DNA of 64,000 nt from Segatella baroniae B14 (lineage in GTDB: Bacteria > Bacteroidota > Bacteroidia > Bacteroidales > Bacteroidaceae): assembly GCF_022024235.1 (NCBI RefSeq), contig NZ_CP091800.1, forward strand, positions 424,001 to 488,000, in the 5' to 3' direction. The position numbers and the translations under genes were made by a program. Positions 18,109-32,690 of this stretch are shown here, one piece after another. The notes under the pieces were generated by a model that saw nothing but the letters and a program-made list of their open reading frames with translations, was not told where the DNA came from and made no database searches. The stretch's first letter is position 1. Every line of letters starts with the position of its first letter.

Positions 18109-18837
18109 TTATAGCATTTCTTGTATTTGGCTGAGTTTATCAGTCGTCAGCAGAATATGCGAATCCATATCTTTTTGCACATTCCATCGGTTGAACCAGA
18201 TGGCATCGAGCCCATAGCCAAGTGCACCAAGAATATCCGTATTATAATTATCGCCAATCATGAGTGTGGAGTCCTTGTCAGCTCCCGTAATATGAAGTGC
18301 ATAATCAAAGAAACCCTTGCCAGGCTTGTTTTCTCCTGCATCTTCACTGAGTATAATATGGTCGAAATACTGGAGCATATCCGAAGCTTGCAGCTTCTTA
18401 TATTGTACTTCATGGAAGCCATTACTACAGATTGACAGATGATAGCCCTCGTTACGAAGATACTGCATTAAATGGTGTGCTCCCTCCACGGTACCCGGTT
18501 TGCAAGAGCAGAGATCGAGATATTGGTCACTCACCTCACGGCAGAAATCGTCAGTTAGCCAACTTGTATCTGTGCCTGGCAGGCAACATTCAAGGATAGG
18601 GCGTCTGAATCGTTCTACGATGAGCACATCACGTGTCATCTCTTTGCGGGTATACCGTGCCCACACATCCTCGTTAGTTGTCCAGTATGCAGTAACGAAT
18701 GCATCGAAATCAGGAATCATGTTAGACCAAGAACGGAGCTCGTAAAGTTCGCGTAGAGCGATTGAATTATTACCACGAGTATCATAGAGTGTATCATCGA
18801 AGTCGATGAACAGGTGAGTATATTTCGGATTTTTCAT
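18109..18837 (-). CDS. HAD-superfamily hydrolase, YjjG-like nucleotidase
   Basis: 242 aa from the ATG at 18837. The HAD signature motifs are present: I DFDDTLYD (nucleophile Asp12, acid Asp14), II SICSNGF, a lysine in the segment around ENKPGKGFFDYAL (motif III), and IV MIGDNYNTDILGA. The helical cap (~20-90) and overall length match the YjjG family (noncanonical pyrimidine nucleotidase, which hydrolyses modified nucleoside monophosphates) better than other HAD families. Substrate assignment is by family likeness only. The start is chosen because a full promoter lies at 18843-18873; a longer frame would start inside it. The mRNA would then be almost leaderless. Confidence 0.88.
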   Translation of the reverse strand: MKNPKYTHLFIDFDDTLYDTRGNNSIALRELYELRSWSNMIPDFDAFVTAYWTTNEDVWARYTRKEMTRDVLIVERFRRPILECCLPGTDTSWLTDDFCREVSDQYLDLCSCKPGTVEGAHHLMQYLRNEGYHLSICSNGFHEVQYKKLQASDMLQYFDHIILSEDAGENKPGKGFFDYALHITGADKDSTLMIGDNYNTDILGALGYGLDAIWFNRWNVQKDMDSHILLTTDKLSQIQEML

Positions 18838-18842
18838 GTGTG

Positions 18843-18873
18843 CAAAGGTACGAAAAAAAAATATTGTTATCAA
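18843..18873 (-). promoter_or_regulatory. promoter of the YjjG-like gene, giving a near-leaderless mRNA
   Basis: Minus strand: TTG (18873-18871), 20-base spacer, TACCTTTG (18850-18843), matching the Bacteroidota consensus. Only five bases separate the -7 box from the ATG at 18837. Confidence 0.65.
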
Positions 18874-19830: not shown

Positions 19831-20007
19831 ATGAAGAAAGCGTACACGAAACCGGCGATGAGGGTGGTAGCCCTCCAGCAGCGGCATCATCTGCTCGGCA
19901 TGAGTGGAGAGATTTCTGGGTATCAGAAGTCGAGTAGCGGATTCAGTCAGGACGAGAGCGACAGCAGCAACGCCCCACAGAGCCGCGGCATCTGGGACAA
20001 TGACTGA
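19831..20007 (+). CDS. 58-aa peptide heading the surface-protein block
   Basis: 58 aa from the ATG at 19831 (MKKAYTKPAMRVVALQQRHH...). It has a basic start with the K-x-Y-x-KP-x-x-x-V-x-x-L-Q pattern, a turn at LLGMSGEISGY, a Ser/Gln/Asp-rich middle and an acidic end GIWDND. Small proteins with this shape are common in Prevotella and Bacteroides next to lipoprotein and fimbrillin genes; their function is unknown to me. There is no classical signal peptide. It is the first gene of the block, 34 bases before the fimbrillin-like gene. It could be a precursor peptide or an accessory protein. An earlier in-frame ATG at 19786 would add a non-matching extension. Confidence 0.65.
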   Translation: MKKAYTKPAMRVVALQQRHHLLGMSGEISGYQKSSSGFSQDESDSSNAPQSRGIWDND

Positions 20008-20980: not shown

Positions 20981-20999
20981 CAGGAAAAAGATAAAGACT

Positions 21000-22112
21000 A
21001 TGAATAAGAATAGACTTTGGCTGATGGCCACCATCCTCGTCTGTGGCTTGGGACTATTCACCTCATGCTCGTCGGAAGACGATCCTCTGGTGATACCCGA
21101 ACAGGGGAAGGCGTTTCGCGCTATGCTGAAAACGCTCGACTGGGGAGCAGACACGACATTCGTGTATGGTCACAAAACGCCTGACGTGGATGCCGTCTGT
21201 TCGTCGTTGGGTTATGCCAAGCTGATGAATGCGCTGGGCTACAACTGCAAGGCAAAGGTGTCGAGTGCGACCAACCGCGAGACAGCCTATATCTCTGGCG
21301 TGTTCGGCTTTGAACTGCCCGAATTGAAGAGCAGTGTGGTGCCGCAGACACGGCTCATACTGACCGACCACACCGACTATGCCCAGTGTGTGGACGGTGC
21401 CAGGGAGGCTATCATCCTACAGAAGATAGACCACCACGTAGAGGGCGACATTCAGGACAGCGGCATTCCCTACGTTCGCAGGGAGATGATTGGCTCCACC
21501 TGCACCATCATCTACGAGATGTACAGGGAGACAGGTGTCGACATCGACGATGAGACTGCCCGCATTCTGCTTGCCGGATTGCTGTCGGACACACGTAATC
21601 TCACCAAGACTACCACTCAGCATGAGGACTCCGTGGCATGGACGGCGCTGGTCGCCCAGTTGCAGTTGGAGGACAAAGTGGCAGAGATTAACCGCCAGAT
21701 GACCGATGCCGCCAATAATTACGATGGCATGAGCGATGGCGAGATCTTTCTCTCGGACTATAAGGAGTATGAGATAGGTGGCAAGGCTATCGGTTTCGGT
21801 TCGCTTAATTGCAAGGCAAGCGAGATGGATGACTTTATCAGCCGTATGTTGGGCGTGATGCCCCAGGTGATGTGCGACAACAGGCGCGACATGCTGTTTG
21901 CCAAGATCGATAATCTTGTACCCAATCCCGACGAGAGCGATCCTGACACGCCTTTCGTGGAAGACGGCACCTATTTCATCTATTACGGTGAAGGGACTCA
22001 GGCTGTGGCCGAGGCCATCTTCGGACCGTCGCTCCGTGAAGGTGTAACCTACTCCAAGGAAGAACTATCACGTAAACAGATTGTGCCGAGAATAACAGAA
22101 ATACTGCAATGA
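21000..22112 (+). CDS. lipoprotein form of family II (DHH/DHHA2) inorganic pyrophosphatase
   Basis: 370 aa. It begins with a lipoprotein signal (RLWLMATILVCGLGLFTSC, lipobox FTSC). The remainder is a DHH-DHHA2 phosphoesterase: GHKTPDVDAVCSSLGYA (metal motif I), LTDHTDY (motif II), KIDHHVEGD (the DHH motif), EMIGSTCTIIYEMY, LLAGLLSDTRNLT, and in the C-terminal domain YSKEELSRKQIVPRI, the substrate-binding SRK-x-x-VP motif. Known: family II pyrophosphatases (PpaC) are Mn/Co enzymes of the cytoplasm that split PPi to phosphate. All key residues seem kept. The odd point is the lipidated, exported form inside a surface-protein operon. What it hydrolyses outside the cytoplasm is open (PPi, nucleotides, polyphosphate). 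Confidence 0.85.
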   Translation: MNKNRLWLMATILVCGLGLFTSCSSEDDPLVIPEQGKAFRAMLKTLDWGADTTFVYGHKTPDVDAVCSSLGYAKLMNALGYNCKAKVSSATNRETAYISGVFGFELPELKSSVVPQTRLILTDHTDYAQCVDGAREAIILQKIDHHVEGDIQDSGIPYVRREMIGSTCTIIYEMYRETGVDIDDETARILLAGLLSDTRNLTKTTTQHEDSVAWTALVAQLQLEDKVAEINRQMTDAANNYDGMSDGEIFLSDYKEYEIGGKAIGFGSLNCKASEMDDFISRMLGVMPQVMCDNRRDMLFAKIDNLVPNPDESDPDTPFVEDGTYFIYYGEGTQAVAEAIFGPSLREGVTYSKEELSRKQIVPRITEILQ

Positions 22113-22135
22113 AATAAACCCAAAAGATAAAGACT

Positions 22136-25100
22136 ATGAAGACAAAAGAACAACAAGGATTCAGGCGGTTGGGACGCAGGGCGTTCGGGCTGCAAGTGCT
22201 GATGCTCTTGCTCGTGATGCTCATCGGGGGAAGCCCGACGACGTGGGCCAACGATGACCCCGGTGGAGGAACCTACACCTTCTGGACCAACGCTGAGGGG
22301 GTAAAAGATATAAAAGACTATTTCAAGACCGTTAGTGCCTTTAGCTTCGCTGACGATAAGTATTTCTGGGAATTCGAGTTCAAGGCCATGCAGCACGCCT
22401 ATCTGGAGAATCACGGAAAGATATACCTGCAGACGAACGACAACAAGTGGCACACAGTGGCTGAATGGGACAAAGAAGCCAACAGCAACAATGTCAGTTT
22501 CAGTGTCAAGGATGAGTCTTGGGGTAACATCGTCATGGTAAGCGGCAACGACTTGGCCAGTATCGGCGGCATCATGACCCTCCGGTTCAAGCCCATACAA
22601 AGGTGTTTCGACGATGGCGTGAAGCGCATCAAGATGGAATACGACATATGGGAGTGGATGAACTATATCCATGATGATGTACCTCGGGGTGACATCCGAT
22701 ATGAGAAGGACCTCAATATGGCGTTTGCCGACAATGAACCCACACCCGACCTGGAGGTGGACTGGGCCGATGACTACTGCATCAGTCTCAAGGCCAGGAA
22801 CGTATATGACAAGCGCAACCAGAACAACAATGTCAAGCAGTATTACACAACATACAGGATAGTTAGTGGCGACAGAGTCAATAACGGCCGATACATCAGC
22901 GAAACAATGAATGTATCTGACTTCACCGTAACTGGTGAACACGGAGGGATGATAGATGTTGAAAGAAACGCTGTTGCCAGAATTAACAACCTGATATGCG
23001 GCGCATACTTCCATCCGATGGGCATTCGCTTTACCCCCACCATCGAATATGTCCCGTATGGGAATACCAACCACCAGAGCAACACTCCTGTCACACTCAC
23101 CCGACCGGCGAAAGAGATTATCATCGACCCTTTCACCTGCGCAAAGAGCCTCAATGTGGACTTTGACAAATGGACCAGGAAGAACACCATTCGCTGGACA
23201 CGCTACGAGGAGCAACGCGGCTGGAGCGTGAACTGCATGGTGACACGCCCTTGCCGCACGGACGGCAAGTGGTACGTCATCCGCTATGAGGATGGTCAGG
23301 CAGCAGACACCTACACCCTCATTGCCGAGATGAACGGCGATGCCACCGACCTCAAGGTGGAGGACAGCGACATCGACTACGATAAACGCTACAACTATCG
23401 CGTCATCTTCCTGCCCGTCGTGCTGGCAGACAAATACGACAAGGACCATCTGACCAGTGGCGTGCTGGCAAACCCCGAAAGGCTACTGACGAACTTCTGG
23501 ATAGAGCAGCAGGTGAGCACACAGCTTGAGATGCCCATCAAGCTGACACAGGACCGCAGTTACGACGGAGCCGTGCGCCTGAAGTGGGAATACTGCGCTG
23601 CCCCCACGGGCGAGAACTGGACGATTGAATACCGTCCGGCAGAGACAGGCAGTGCCTGGCGCGTGCTCGACAACAGCATGATGGTCGATACGGAGGCATC
23701 GGAGGCCAGCTTCGATGCCGAAGGGTCGGTGTGCGACATGATGGACTATCGTGTAAAAACCACCTATATGAACCGAGACTTCTACTCTAACGTCTATACT
23801 GGCAACCTGCCTGCTGGCAGCTACATCAGCGAGGTGAATGCATCGACAGGCACGGAGGAGAAGACCGTCATCGTGAAGTGGAAGGTGGCTCGCGCCGACG
23901 TTACAAACGATATCTACTTCCGTGTGCTGCGCCGCGTCATTGGCGATACAGACTGGACGCTGCTCACCGACGAGATTCATGGCACGGCCACGGAATACAC
24001 CTATACCGATGACCGTCCGCTGGCCGGCTCGTACTATGAATACTCCGTGCAGGCCTACGGCGCGAAGTGCGACGAGCAGATCGTGAAGACCGACGAGGTC
24101 ATCGCCCCTGGTTTCTCGCAAGCCCGAGGCACCATCACTGGTCACATCTCCTACGGCTCGGGAACAGCCGTCGATGGCGTGAAGGTGAACCTCGTCAAGG
24201 CCAGTGCCGACGAGCAGACCGACCAGCCGCAGTTCCTCTCGCGCTACATCGAGGGTGCAGGCAAGGGCTTGCAGTGGACGACTGCTAACAAGGAGAAGTA
24301 CGCCAACGTGCTCAGCGGTGACGGCACCTTCACCATACAGTTCTGGGCACGGCCAAAGAGCGTGGATGCCGGAGGAGCCGCCAACCAAACCATTCTGCGA
24401 TTAGGCAACGGACTGGAGCTGGGCGTGATGAGCGACGACGGCACACATTTCTATCTGAACAGAGTCATCCACTATGACAATAGGCTGAACTCGCATCACT
24501 TCAATAAGAGCCTGCCGTTCAGCACCACCGACTTTACCCACGTCACCGCCGTCTATGACCACGGCATGTTGACTTGTTATGTGGGCACCGACTCGCTGCT
24601 GTCGTACACACTCGATTGCACTCAGTATAAGGACTGGAACATTGGCAGCGATCCCACCCTCGCTGTGGGCGGCATCGAAAGCATGTACGCAGGTATGGGC
24701 CAGTCCTTCAACGGCTATATTGACGACATCCGCCTATGGAACAGAGCCCTGAGCAAAGAAGAGGTGGAAGCCAACTACACCCGTATCCTCGGTGGTACGG
24801 AGTACGGTTTGGTGCTCTACTGGCCGCTCGACGAGGGACTCGGTGTGAAGGACTATGCCTTCGACGTGGCCCGTCAGGACGGCATCTACCAGCTGAACCA
24901 TCCTGAGGTTGGACTTAATGCCACGCCGTCGGCCACCGTGCCGCAGCAGTTGGGTCTTTACGGTGTGACCGACAAGAATGGCAACTATATCATACGCGGT
25001 ATTCCGTTCCAGCAAGGCGGCACCAACTACGAGATTGCCCCGCTGTACGGCGTGCATCAGTTCAATCCCGTCACACGCTCGATGTTCGTCAGCCCCACCT

Positions 25101-31952: not shown

Positions 31953-32690
31953 ATGATTAGAGTAATGATGGAAAAAGGACTGAGCGGCAACGCACTGAAG
32001 GTCATCGCCATCGTCGCCATGACGATCGACCACCTGGCTTGGGTGGGCATTGAGACCTACGAGCAGGCAGAGACGCCGACGCAGATATTCCTGCACTGCA
32101 TCGGACGGCTGACGGCCCCGATGATGATATTCTTCGTGGCCGAGGGCTATCACCACACGCACGACTTCCGCCGCTACCTACGCCGTCTGCTCATGCTGGC
32201 CGTGGTGAGCCACTTCGCCTTCTGCTATTTCAACATGTCGGGCTTCAACCCGCTCGGCAACCTGCTCTTCAATGCCACGAGCATCGCCTGGCCGCTGCTC
32301 TGGGGGCTGATACTGCTGAAAGTATGGGACATGGAGCGACTTGCCCGATGGCAGAAGGTCGGTGTTACGTTGGTGGCCTGCCTGCTCACCTGCACCTCCG
32401 ACTGGAGTTGTGCCGCCCCGCTGGCCATACTCATGATAGGCCGGAACCGGGGCTGCTTCCACAAGCAGATGCTCTGGATGATGGCCATCATCTCGCTCTA
32501 CGCCGTCGCCTTCTTCATATTCCACAGTCCCACCTACGGCATGGTCCACCTGGCCTGCTGGCTGGCAGTACCGCTGCTGGCGATGTACAACGGCCAGCGA
32601 GGACGGCTGAAGTGGCTCGGCAAGTTCTTCTACTATTACTATCCCGCCCACATGGCGGTAATAGGCCTGCTGGCCCGTTGCTTCCAATAA
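31953..32690 (+). CDS. TraX-family integral membrane protein (putative acyltransferase)
   Basis: 245 aa with about seven hydrophobic segments. The N-terminal signature ALKVIAIVAMTIDHLAW, then CIGRLTAPMMIFFVAEGYHHTHDFRRYLRRLL, matches the TraX family (K.IA...M..DH, GR...P...F...G...T....Y..RL). Known: TraX of the F plasmid acetylates the N-terminus of pilin. Chromosomal homologues are widespread and mostly uncharacterised, and are thought to be membrane acyltransferases. Here it follows the giant surface protein by 79 bases and shares its G+C-rich composition, so it may modify a product of the block or an envelope glycan; that is inference. Starts at 31953 or 31968 (ATG) are both possible. Confidence 0.8.
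   Translation: MIRVMMEKGLSGNALKVIAIVAMTIDHLAWVGIETYEQAETPTQIFLHCIGRLTAPMMIFFVAEGYHHTHDFRRYLRRLLMLAVVSHFAFCYFNMSGFNPLGNLLFNATSIAWPLLWGLILLKVWDMERLARWQKVGVTLVACLLTCTSDWSCAAPLAILMIGRNRGCFHKQMLWMMAIISLYAVAFFIFHSPTYGMVHLACWLAVPLLAMYNGQRGRLKWLGKFFYYYYPAHMAVIGLLARCFQ

Follow-up and report, generated by a model that had tools for sequence, protein, structure and literature searches.

The window, a stretch of 64,000 nucleotides from Segatella baroniae B14, contains an open reading frame that starts with ATG and runs without an internal stop; its product consists of a lipoprotein signal, a linker, a DHH domain and a DHHA2 domain (Table 1). Both domains were matched in Pfam above their gathering scores (DHH, E = 1.5e-17; DHHA2, E = 1e-11), with D197 lying just past the end of the DHH match, and no DHHA1 domain, the hallmark sought for the NrnA/GdpP type, was matched in the protein at E 0.001. 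The genome (3.63 Mb in two contigs) carries this single DHHA2 gene; as to other pyrophosphatases, it gave no match to family I and one to the membrane pyrophosphatase. Among named strains, Prevotella lacticifex JCM 34664 is the closest (protein identity 99.5%), and several named MAG matches come from cattle or buffalo rumen and reticulum.

Table 1. Positions in the window of the enzyme gene, its parts and its neighbours
Feature	Position	Strand	Basis or remark
Predicted exported lipoprotein of DHH-DHHA2 (family II pyrophosphatase) type, 370 aa	21000..22112	+	ORF, Pfam, structure matches
Lipoprotein signal peptide, residues 1-22, with predicted lipidated Cys23 (21066-21068)	21000..21068	+	Sequence; signal in 38/38 readable homologous loci
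Stretch SSEDD after the cysteine (+2 to +6), resembling the Bacteroides lipoprotein export signal	21069..21083	+	Count of acidic residues; part of PMC6222051
DHH domain, residues 53-193	21156..21578	+	Holds H58, D62, D64, D123, H124, D144, H145, H146
DHHA2 domain, residues 233-367	21696..22100	+	Holds K255, R358, K359
Upstream lipoprotein, 312 aa	20042..20980	+	19 nt before the enzyme gene
Giant secreted protein, 3245 aa	22136..31873	+	Laminin_G_3 matches; 23 nt after the enzyme gene

The enzyme gene does lie between a lipoprotein gene and the gene of a giant secreted protein, as the first-pass annotation had described, and judging from the spacing, enzyme and giant are probably on one transcript; promoter and terminator scans at the locus were at or near chance level. 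The same annotation had called the upstream lipoprotein fimbrillin-like, and this part of the description was not confirmed: no Pfam family was matched at E 0.001, and a sub-threshold cadherin match was all that appeared at E 5. In a survey of the neighbourhood, the enzyme was placed in 38 loci, L009 and L017 being left out. The giant was found directly downstream only in the window and in L003, L004, L006, L007, L008 and L014 (L005 ends before the giant), so that direct adjacency is confined to the window's species cluster. No giant was present in the available flank of 29 of the 38 loci, where several flanks are cut by contig ends. Two other genera have giant homologs in the vicinity of the enzyme, upstream of it by about 2 kb in G102 (L059) and by about 6 kb in G357 (L046/L082), and the giant query, tails included, has matches in 20 of 23 other carrier genomes, often several. 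A conserved operon of enzyme and giant was rejected on these grounds, giants being common and their direct adjacency being limited to one species cluster, and owing to this limit the neighbours give little functional evidence.

The neighbours of the enzyme in other loci were likewise of little help. Seventeen that we chose for inspection comprise peptidase C11, GH3, M13, an esterase with CBM48, YkuD, a D-Ala-D-Ala carboxypeptidase, a peroxiredoxin, an outer membrane efflux protein and a fimbrillin-like protein, among others; four of the 17 had no family, and no common theme was found among them. The neighbours, which vary across loci, were rejected as a clue to function.

Several further observations concern the locus itself. 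Two identical runs of 19 bases (AAAAGATAAAGACTATGAA), at 20986-21004 and 22122-22140 of the window, cover the enzyme and the giant start codon, respectively. A small ORF of 58 codons at 19831-20007 (MKKAYTKPAMRVV...), with no Pfam family, is located just upstream of the lipoprotein genes. The last 49-75 residues of the giant match six further open frames of this genome, 196 to 1162 aa in length, and perhaps form a sorting tail. The giant is followed on the same strand by a TraX family gene (31953-32690; Pfam, 2.4e-25).

The N-terminal signal and predicted placement in the cell

The window protein begins with MNKNRLWLMATILVCGLGLFTS followed by CSSEDD, that is, a charged start and a hydrophobic stretch ending in FTS directly before the cysteine. 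All 38 homologous loci whose N-terminus could be read, with 32 distinct proteins between them, show a hydrophobic segment with a lipobox-like pattern at its end; among the 38 are the window itself, seven loci nearly identical to it and two contigs present twice. The lipobox pattern was of our own making and permissive, start codons were picked by rule, and signals were called without SignalP. The count omits L017, a C-terminal fragment, and L041, a frame-broken copy whose N-terminus is still lipoprotein-like. By this pattern, the lipoprotein signal that the first-pass annotation saw ahead of the enzyme is shared by the whole set of readable loci, beyond what chance would give. By contrast, in the 13 reference family II enzymes about a dozen residues or fewer separate the start from motif I.

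The same annotation had named translation from a start downstream of the signal as the fact that would speak against export. The working form would then be a cytoplasmic protein and the signal incidental, a reading that we regard as scarcely credible. The window protein does have an in-frame ATG at residue 42, just ahead of the DHH domain. However, in nine of the 38 loci there is no ATG between the cysteine and motif I, and in three of them neither ATG, GTG nor TTG occurs there, so that an internal start is no general explanation; moreover, the signals persist while diverging, and a relative from Selenomonas described below carries a signal of a different, Sec type (judged by eye).

Part of the work on Bacteroides lipoproteins (PMC6222051) describes that the motif CS(D/E)2 beside the lipid cysteine leads to lipoproteins on the outside of the cell and in vesicles. 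Among the 28 distinct N-termini of our set, 24 have at least two acidic residues between +2 and +6, with +4 and +5 the commonest positions, versus 11 of 176 when the same count was made after other cysteines of these proteins. In the window protein, the acids of CSSEDD occupy +4 to +6, compared with +3 and +4 in CS(D/E)2, and the motif is thus shifted by one residue relative to the one tested experimentally, as that source gives it. The acidic stretch after the cysteine favours a location at the cell surface, although the shift has to be counted against the explanation proposed below.

Active-site residues, family and fold

To the 32 distinct lipoproteins we aligned 13 reference family II enzymes, three of which are CBS enzymes whose insert was cut out, and the Selenomonas protein. 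The window protein has GHKTPDVDAV from residue 57, DHH at 144-146 and SRKQIVP from 357. In the alignment, H58, D62, D64, D123, H124, D144, H145, H146, D197, K255 and R358 are kept in 32 of 32 lipoproteins, and K359 in 31, being R in the remaining one. In motif I (GHxxPDxD), the His and both Asp are found in every protein and the Pro is replaced by Gln in two; DHH of motif III and the Asp of SD(T) are likewise invariant in all 32. The His and Asp positions, H58 among them, we take to be the metal ligands. The first-pass annotation had described the active site as apparently intact and had pointed to loss of metal ligands as the observation that would undo its reading; none of these ligands, nor the substrate Arg, is lost in any of the 32 proteins.

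The differences lie elsewhere. In motif II, D and H are kept throughout and the third residue is T in 20 proteins, S in nine, G in one and N in two. The C-terminal signature SRKKQ has become SRKQ in the main lipoprotein group, and the residue that follows DHH is not Arg. The Arg-Lys pair of SRKKQ corresponds to R295 and K296 of B. subtilis, whose roles are described in a section of PMC11210485. The motif II Asn is also missing in three of the 13 reference enzymes, and 9m0m, a solved structure named family II pyrophosphatase, has DHS; the Asn is therefore no clean marker of family II. In a CBS-pyrophosphatase, as stated in part of PMC10742508, ATP inhibits instead of activating once the highly conserved Asn312 is exchanged for Ala. 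Asn312 is perhaps the motif II Asn; if so, its loss may be harmless in proteins without CBS domains.

As regards family membership, a passage of PMC3022644 gives the His of motif I as a mark of pyrophosphatases, exopolyphosphatases having Asn there; by this rule, the lipoproteins are pyrophosphatase-like in sequence, with His in 32 of 32 and none showing the Asn of exopolyphosphatase PPX1. The combination that characterizes Prune, with DHH as motif II and DHR as motif III, was not found either. Against the NCBI PpaC equivalog (NCBIfam PRK05427), the window protein scored 185.4 bits and the Selenomonas protein 265.9 bits, both below the cut-off of 283, and because of this curated cut-off we do not file the window protein as PpaC. 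With PpaC (Bacillus subtilis, 1k23/2iw4; Streptococcus mutans, 1i74), the window group shares the DHH and DHHA2 domains, the fold, motif I GHxxPDxD, DHH and the C-terminal Arg-Lys; it differs in the lipoprotein signal, in having mostly DHT or DHS for DHN and SRKQ for SRKKQ, in the lack of Arg after DHH, and in overall sequence, with about 26-28% identity in the structural alignment. The catalytic domains are also common to the CBS-domain family II pyrophosphatases (L018-L020), whereas no CBS or DRTGG insert such as theirs was found, by sequence or Pfam, in the DHH domain of the window protein.

Searches against solved structures gave family II pyrophosphatases as the best sequence matches (1i74 at 4.2e-33; with a profile, 1.9e-73 for the family II pyrophosphatases), compared with a profile E-value of 1e-13 for the rival of exopolyphosphatase type. 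An AlphaFold2 model built from 12 sequences had a mean pLDDT of 84.1 and a pTM of 0.77, residues 1-31 being below 50. With this predicted model, Foldseek placed family II pyrophosphatases on top (2iw4, E = 2.2e-27, TM-score by target 0.81), and VIA-align gave 1i74 a Z of 32.9 (rmsd 3.3, 304 aligned), the yeast cytosolic exopolyphosphatase PPX1 (2qb6) a Z of 28.6, not far under the pyrophosphatases, and DHHA1 phosphodiesterases a Z below 20. The fold of the model is thus that of a family II pyrophosphatase overall, though a fold alone is no proof of function.

Taking into consideration the altered motif II and the SRKQ signature, the substrate may not be PPi. We give a limited chance, well short of an even one, to the reading that the enzyme is exported and active with short-chain polyphosphate or another phosphoanhydride as its main substrate, in a pocket that would be reshaped by the changes in motif II, just behind DHH and in the shortened SRKQ loop. 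The replacement of DHN by DHT, DHS or DHG in 30 of the 32 proteins, the lack of an Arg next to DHH, the SRKQ form of the main group, the score below the PpaC cut-off and the good match of the predicted fold to 2qb6 are all consistent with it. On the other hand, the lipoproteins, which share the DHH-DHHA2 fold with PPX1, differ from exopolyphosphatases at the motif I residue singled out in the cited passage of PMC3022644, pyrophosphatases are closer both by sequence and by fold, and 9m0m combines the name of a pyrophosphatase with DHS.

Distribution, tree and the Selenomonas relative

Of 399 genomes sampled from the family, 24 have DHHA2 (22 above the cut-off of the domain family); they belong to six of 30 genera and hold 25 genes in all. 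Twenty-four of these genes are intact and all 24 carry a lipoprotein signal; the signal is still visible in the 25th, the frame-broken L041. Beyond the window's own genome, DHHA2 was found neither in a sample of 295 genomes of the order nor in one of 395 genomes of the phylum. Within the family, the lipoprotein form now has a patchy spread across at least six genera, and identity of the homologous lipoproteins to the window protein ranges from 33 to 100%. One genome, G211, has two DHH-DHHA2 lipoproteins (L024 and L044), one from each subgroup. Two copies are decayed: L041 in G173 is broken by frame changes and L015 has an internal deletion of about 60 residues.

In all nine pairs that we chose for comparison, dN/dS of the enzyme part was 0.05-0.22, the two lowest values coming from pairs saturated in dS and the remaining seven spanning 0.12-0.22; for the N-terminal part, it was 0.21-0.39 in the eight pairs of nine that allowed its calculation. 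Purifying selection acts on the catalytic part, and the predicted signal sequences diverge yet stay signals. Loss of catalysis, leaving an exported protein with a binding or structural role at the surface, would fit the sporadic presence of the gene, the broken copy and the copy with the internal deletion; retention of all metal ligands and the low dN/dS of the enzyme part argue against it, and we consider it very improbable.

A maximum-likelihood tree was computed with the signals left out from 45 rows, namely 31 lipoproteins, the Selenomonas protein and 13 references; L015 was omitted because of its deletion, and Paracoccus L079, an unannotated reference, was omitted from both alignment and tree. 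The lipoproteins form one group with a support of 98/97, which answers the call for a phylogeny of lipobox-bearing DHH-DHHA2 proteins, and the Selenomonas protein adjoins them (100/97), at a fork that joins long branches according to a program warning, in a tree rooted at the midpoint and with a small sample of references. A single origin of export, on a branch that includes the secreted Selenomonas enzyme, is likely from these sequences.

The Selenomonas protein, a DHH family phosphoesterase of 362 aa encoded on Selenomonas ruminantium plasmid pSRC7 (WP_014431014.1, L069), was the best match among plasmid records. It begins with MKKQHQSVLLYCVLFLIWFFIPYTSVEGA, by eye an ordinary Sec secretion signal without lipobox, and keeps the catalytic residues, with DHN as motif II. 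Like the lipoproteins it bears a signal, and it stands next to them in the tree, identity being 37% over 271 columns; it differs from them in the type of signal, in DHN and in its locus (L069, 2876-10543), where the enzyme gene is found between a transporter of ShlB/FhaC type (TpsB) and a giant filamentous adhesin gene, all co-directional. The exported branch of family II pyrophosphatases appears, from these sequences, to span two phyla.

The pSRC7 locus also bears on whether the exported enzyme serves adjacent giant adhesins, for instance through removal of PPi or chelated metal while these proteins are assembled at the surface or modified. In the window too, lipoprotein, enzyme and giant are co-directional and closely spaced, and giants lie upstream of the enzyme in the two other genera named above. 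Against such a role stand the many placed loci with no giant in the available, in part truncated, flank, the frequency of giants among carriers, and a second giant in the window's genome (G000:C2:188753-194512, L081), about 50-56% identical to the first, beside which no pyrophosphatase is found. The link between enzyme and giant adhesins is suggestive only, and we hold this role to be improbable.

Carriage of the enzyme by phages or plasmids was considered and rejected, as no close relatives turned up: viral contigs gave none with two protein queries and two at 30% with an alignment query, and phage and plasmid records gave far relatives only, all below 60% identity. Among the plasmid relatives, L070 (E. 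coli) and L078 (Pantoea) are pyrophosphatases of family II type, both with DFT as motif II; L070 is accompanied by a universal stress protein, enolase and crcB, and resembles a fluoride resistance operon.

Proposed function and other pyrophosphatases

Soluble pyrophosphatases are usually presented as cytoplasmic housekeeping enzymes. In the open-access literature, with most subscription papers outside its scope, we found no description of an exported family II pyrophosphatase; a 2024 review (PMC11210485) treats cytoplasmic and membrane forms, and the word 'lipoprotein' does not occur in the portion of its text that was available. Here an enzyme of a kind normally intracellular is tagged for export with its active site apparently intact, and it probably works outside the cytoplasm, a setting in which this enzyme type has hardly been considered so far.

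The best reading, by virtue of the signal, the catalytic residues, the fold and the conservation across relatives, is that of an exported outer-membrane pyrophosphatase of family II type, most likely facing outwards, that would split PPi; we favour it with moderate confidence. The first-pass annotation had left open an exported pyrophosphatase or a nucleotide phosphohydrolase, and the first of these has gained from the analysis; the second is less supported, since dinucleotide enzymes of DHHA1 type match worse. We suggest that the protein would leave the cytoplasm through Sec, receive a lipid at Cys23 and be anchored in the outer membrane, where it would be flipped to the outer face; it would also be present on vesicles. 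It would fold with a transition metal, and by analogy its activity would depend on Mn2+ or Co2+; loading with Mn or Co outside the cytoplasm is put forward as a proposal only. PPi, and perhaps very short polyphosphate, would then be split into phosphate outside the cell. The most likely benefit, and the weakest step, would be salvage or clearance near the cell of PPi from lysed cells and nucleotide breakdown; alternatively, the gain may lie in the removal of PPi as a binder of metals and a brake on nucleotide breakdown. The high phosphate content of rumen fluid counts against a need for phosphate as the only motive. The sporadic occurrence of the gene (24 of 399 genomes) and its variable neighbours also count against an exported pyrophosphatase.

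The finding extends beyond the window gene to what appears to be an exported branch of family II pyrophosphatases. Its conservation implies that PPi or a similar phosphoanhydride would matter to these gut bacteria as an extracytoplasmic substrate. In their metabolic models, a protein annotated as 'manganese-dependent inorganic pyrophosphatase' or 'DHH phosphoesterase' is not to be equated with a cytoplasmic PPi sink. The case is a clean one, with a single gene, a clear prediction and a strain-level relative in P. lacticifex JCM 34664.

Other pyrophosphatases were counted in the family sample of 399 genomes, where the membrane pyrophosphatase is present in 193 and family I in five; in the 208 genomes that are at least 90% complete, the membrane enzyme is present in 137. 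Part of the absences comes from incomplete genomes. The membrane form was found in six of 24 carriers of the DHHA2 gene versus 187 of 375 non-carriers (p = 0.02), and both family I and membrane forms are absent from 17 of 24 carriers versus 185 of 375 non-carriers (Fisher p = 0.057); in the genomes at least 90% complete, both are absent from 11 of 17 carriers versus 57 of 191 non-carriers (p = 0.006), kinship being uncorrected in all three comparisons. A single genus, g14, accounts for ten of the 24 carriers and has just one entry for the membrane enzyme. PF00719, PF03030 and PF02833 are all absent at E 0.001 from 185 of the 399 genomes, and from 57 of the 208 that are at least 90% complete.

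The absences in carriers would suit a cytoplasmic form of the protein; however, the 185 non-carriers in the same situation must cope otherwise. For the same reason we rejected the idea that the lipoprotein is the sole pyrophosphatase and hence essential. It is also highly unlikely, in our estimate, that the 17 carriers have no classical pyrophosphatase besides the exported lipoprotein and release some of their PPi to be split outside the cytoplasm, an extracytoplasmic PPi economy with the enzyme as a public good on vesicles. A HAD hydrolase encoded in the window (18109-18873) was discarded as a candidate pyrophosphatase, its closest match being 3qnm, with no sign of pyrophosphatase identity. 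The HAD type represented by BT2127 of Bacteroides has a fold of its own, other than DHH-DHHA2. A passage of the 2024 review (PMC11210485) names BT2127 as a pyrophosphatase in the same bacterial group. Cells without both families may dispose of PPi by this HAD type or by PPi-using glycolytic enzymes.
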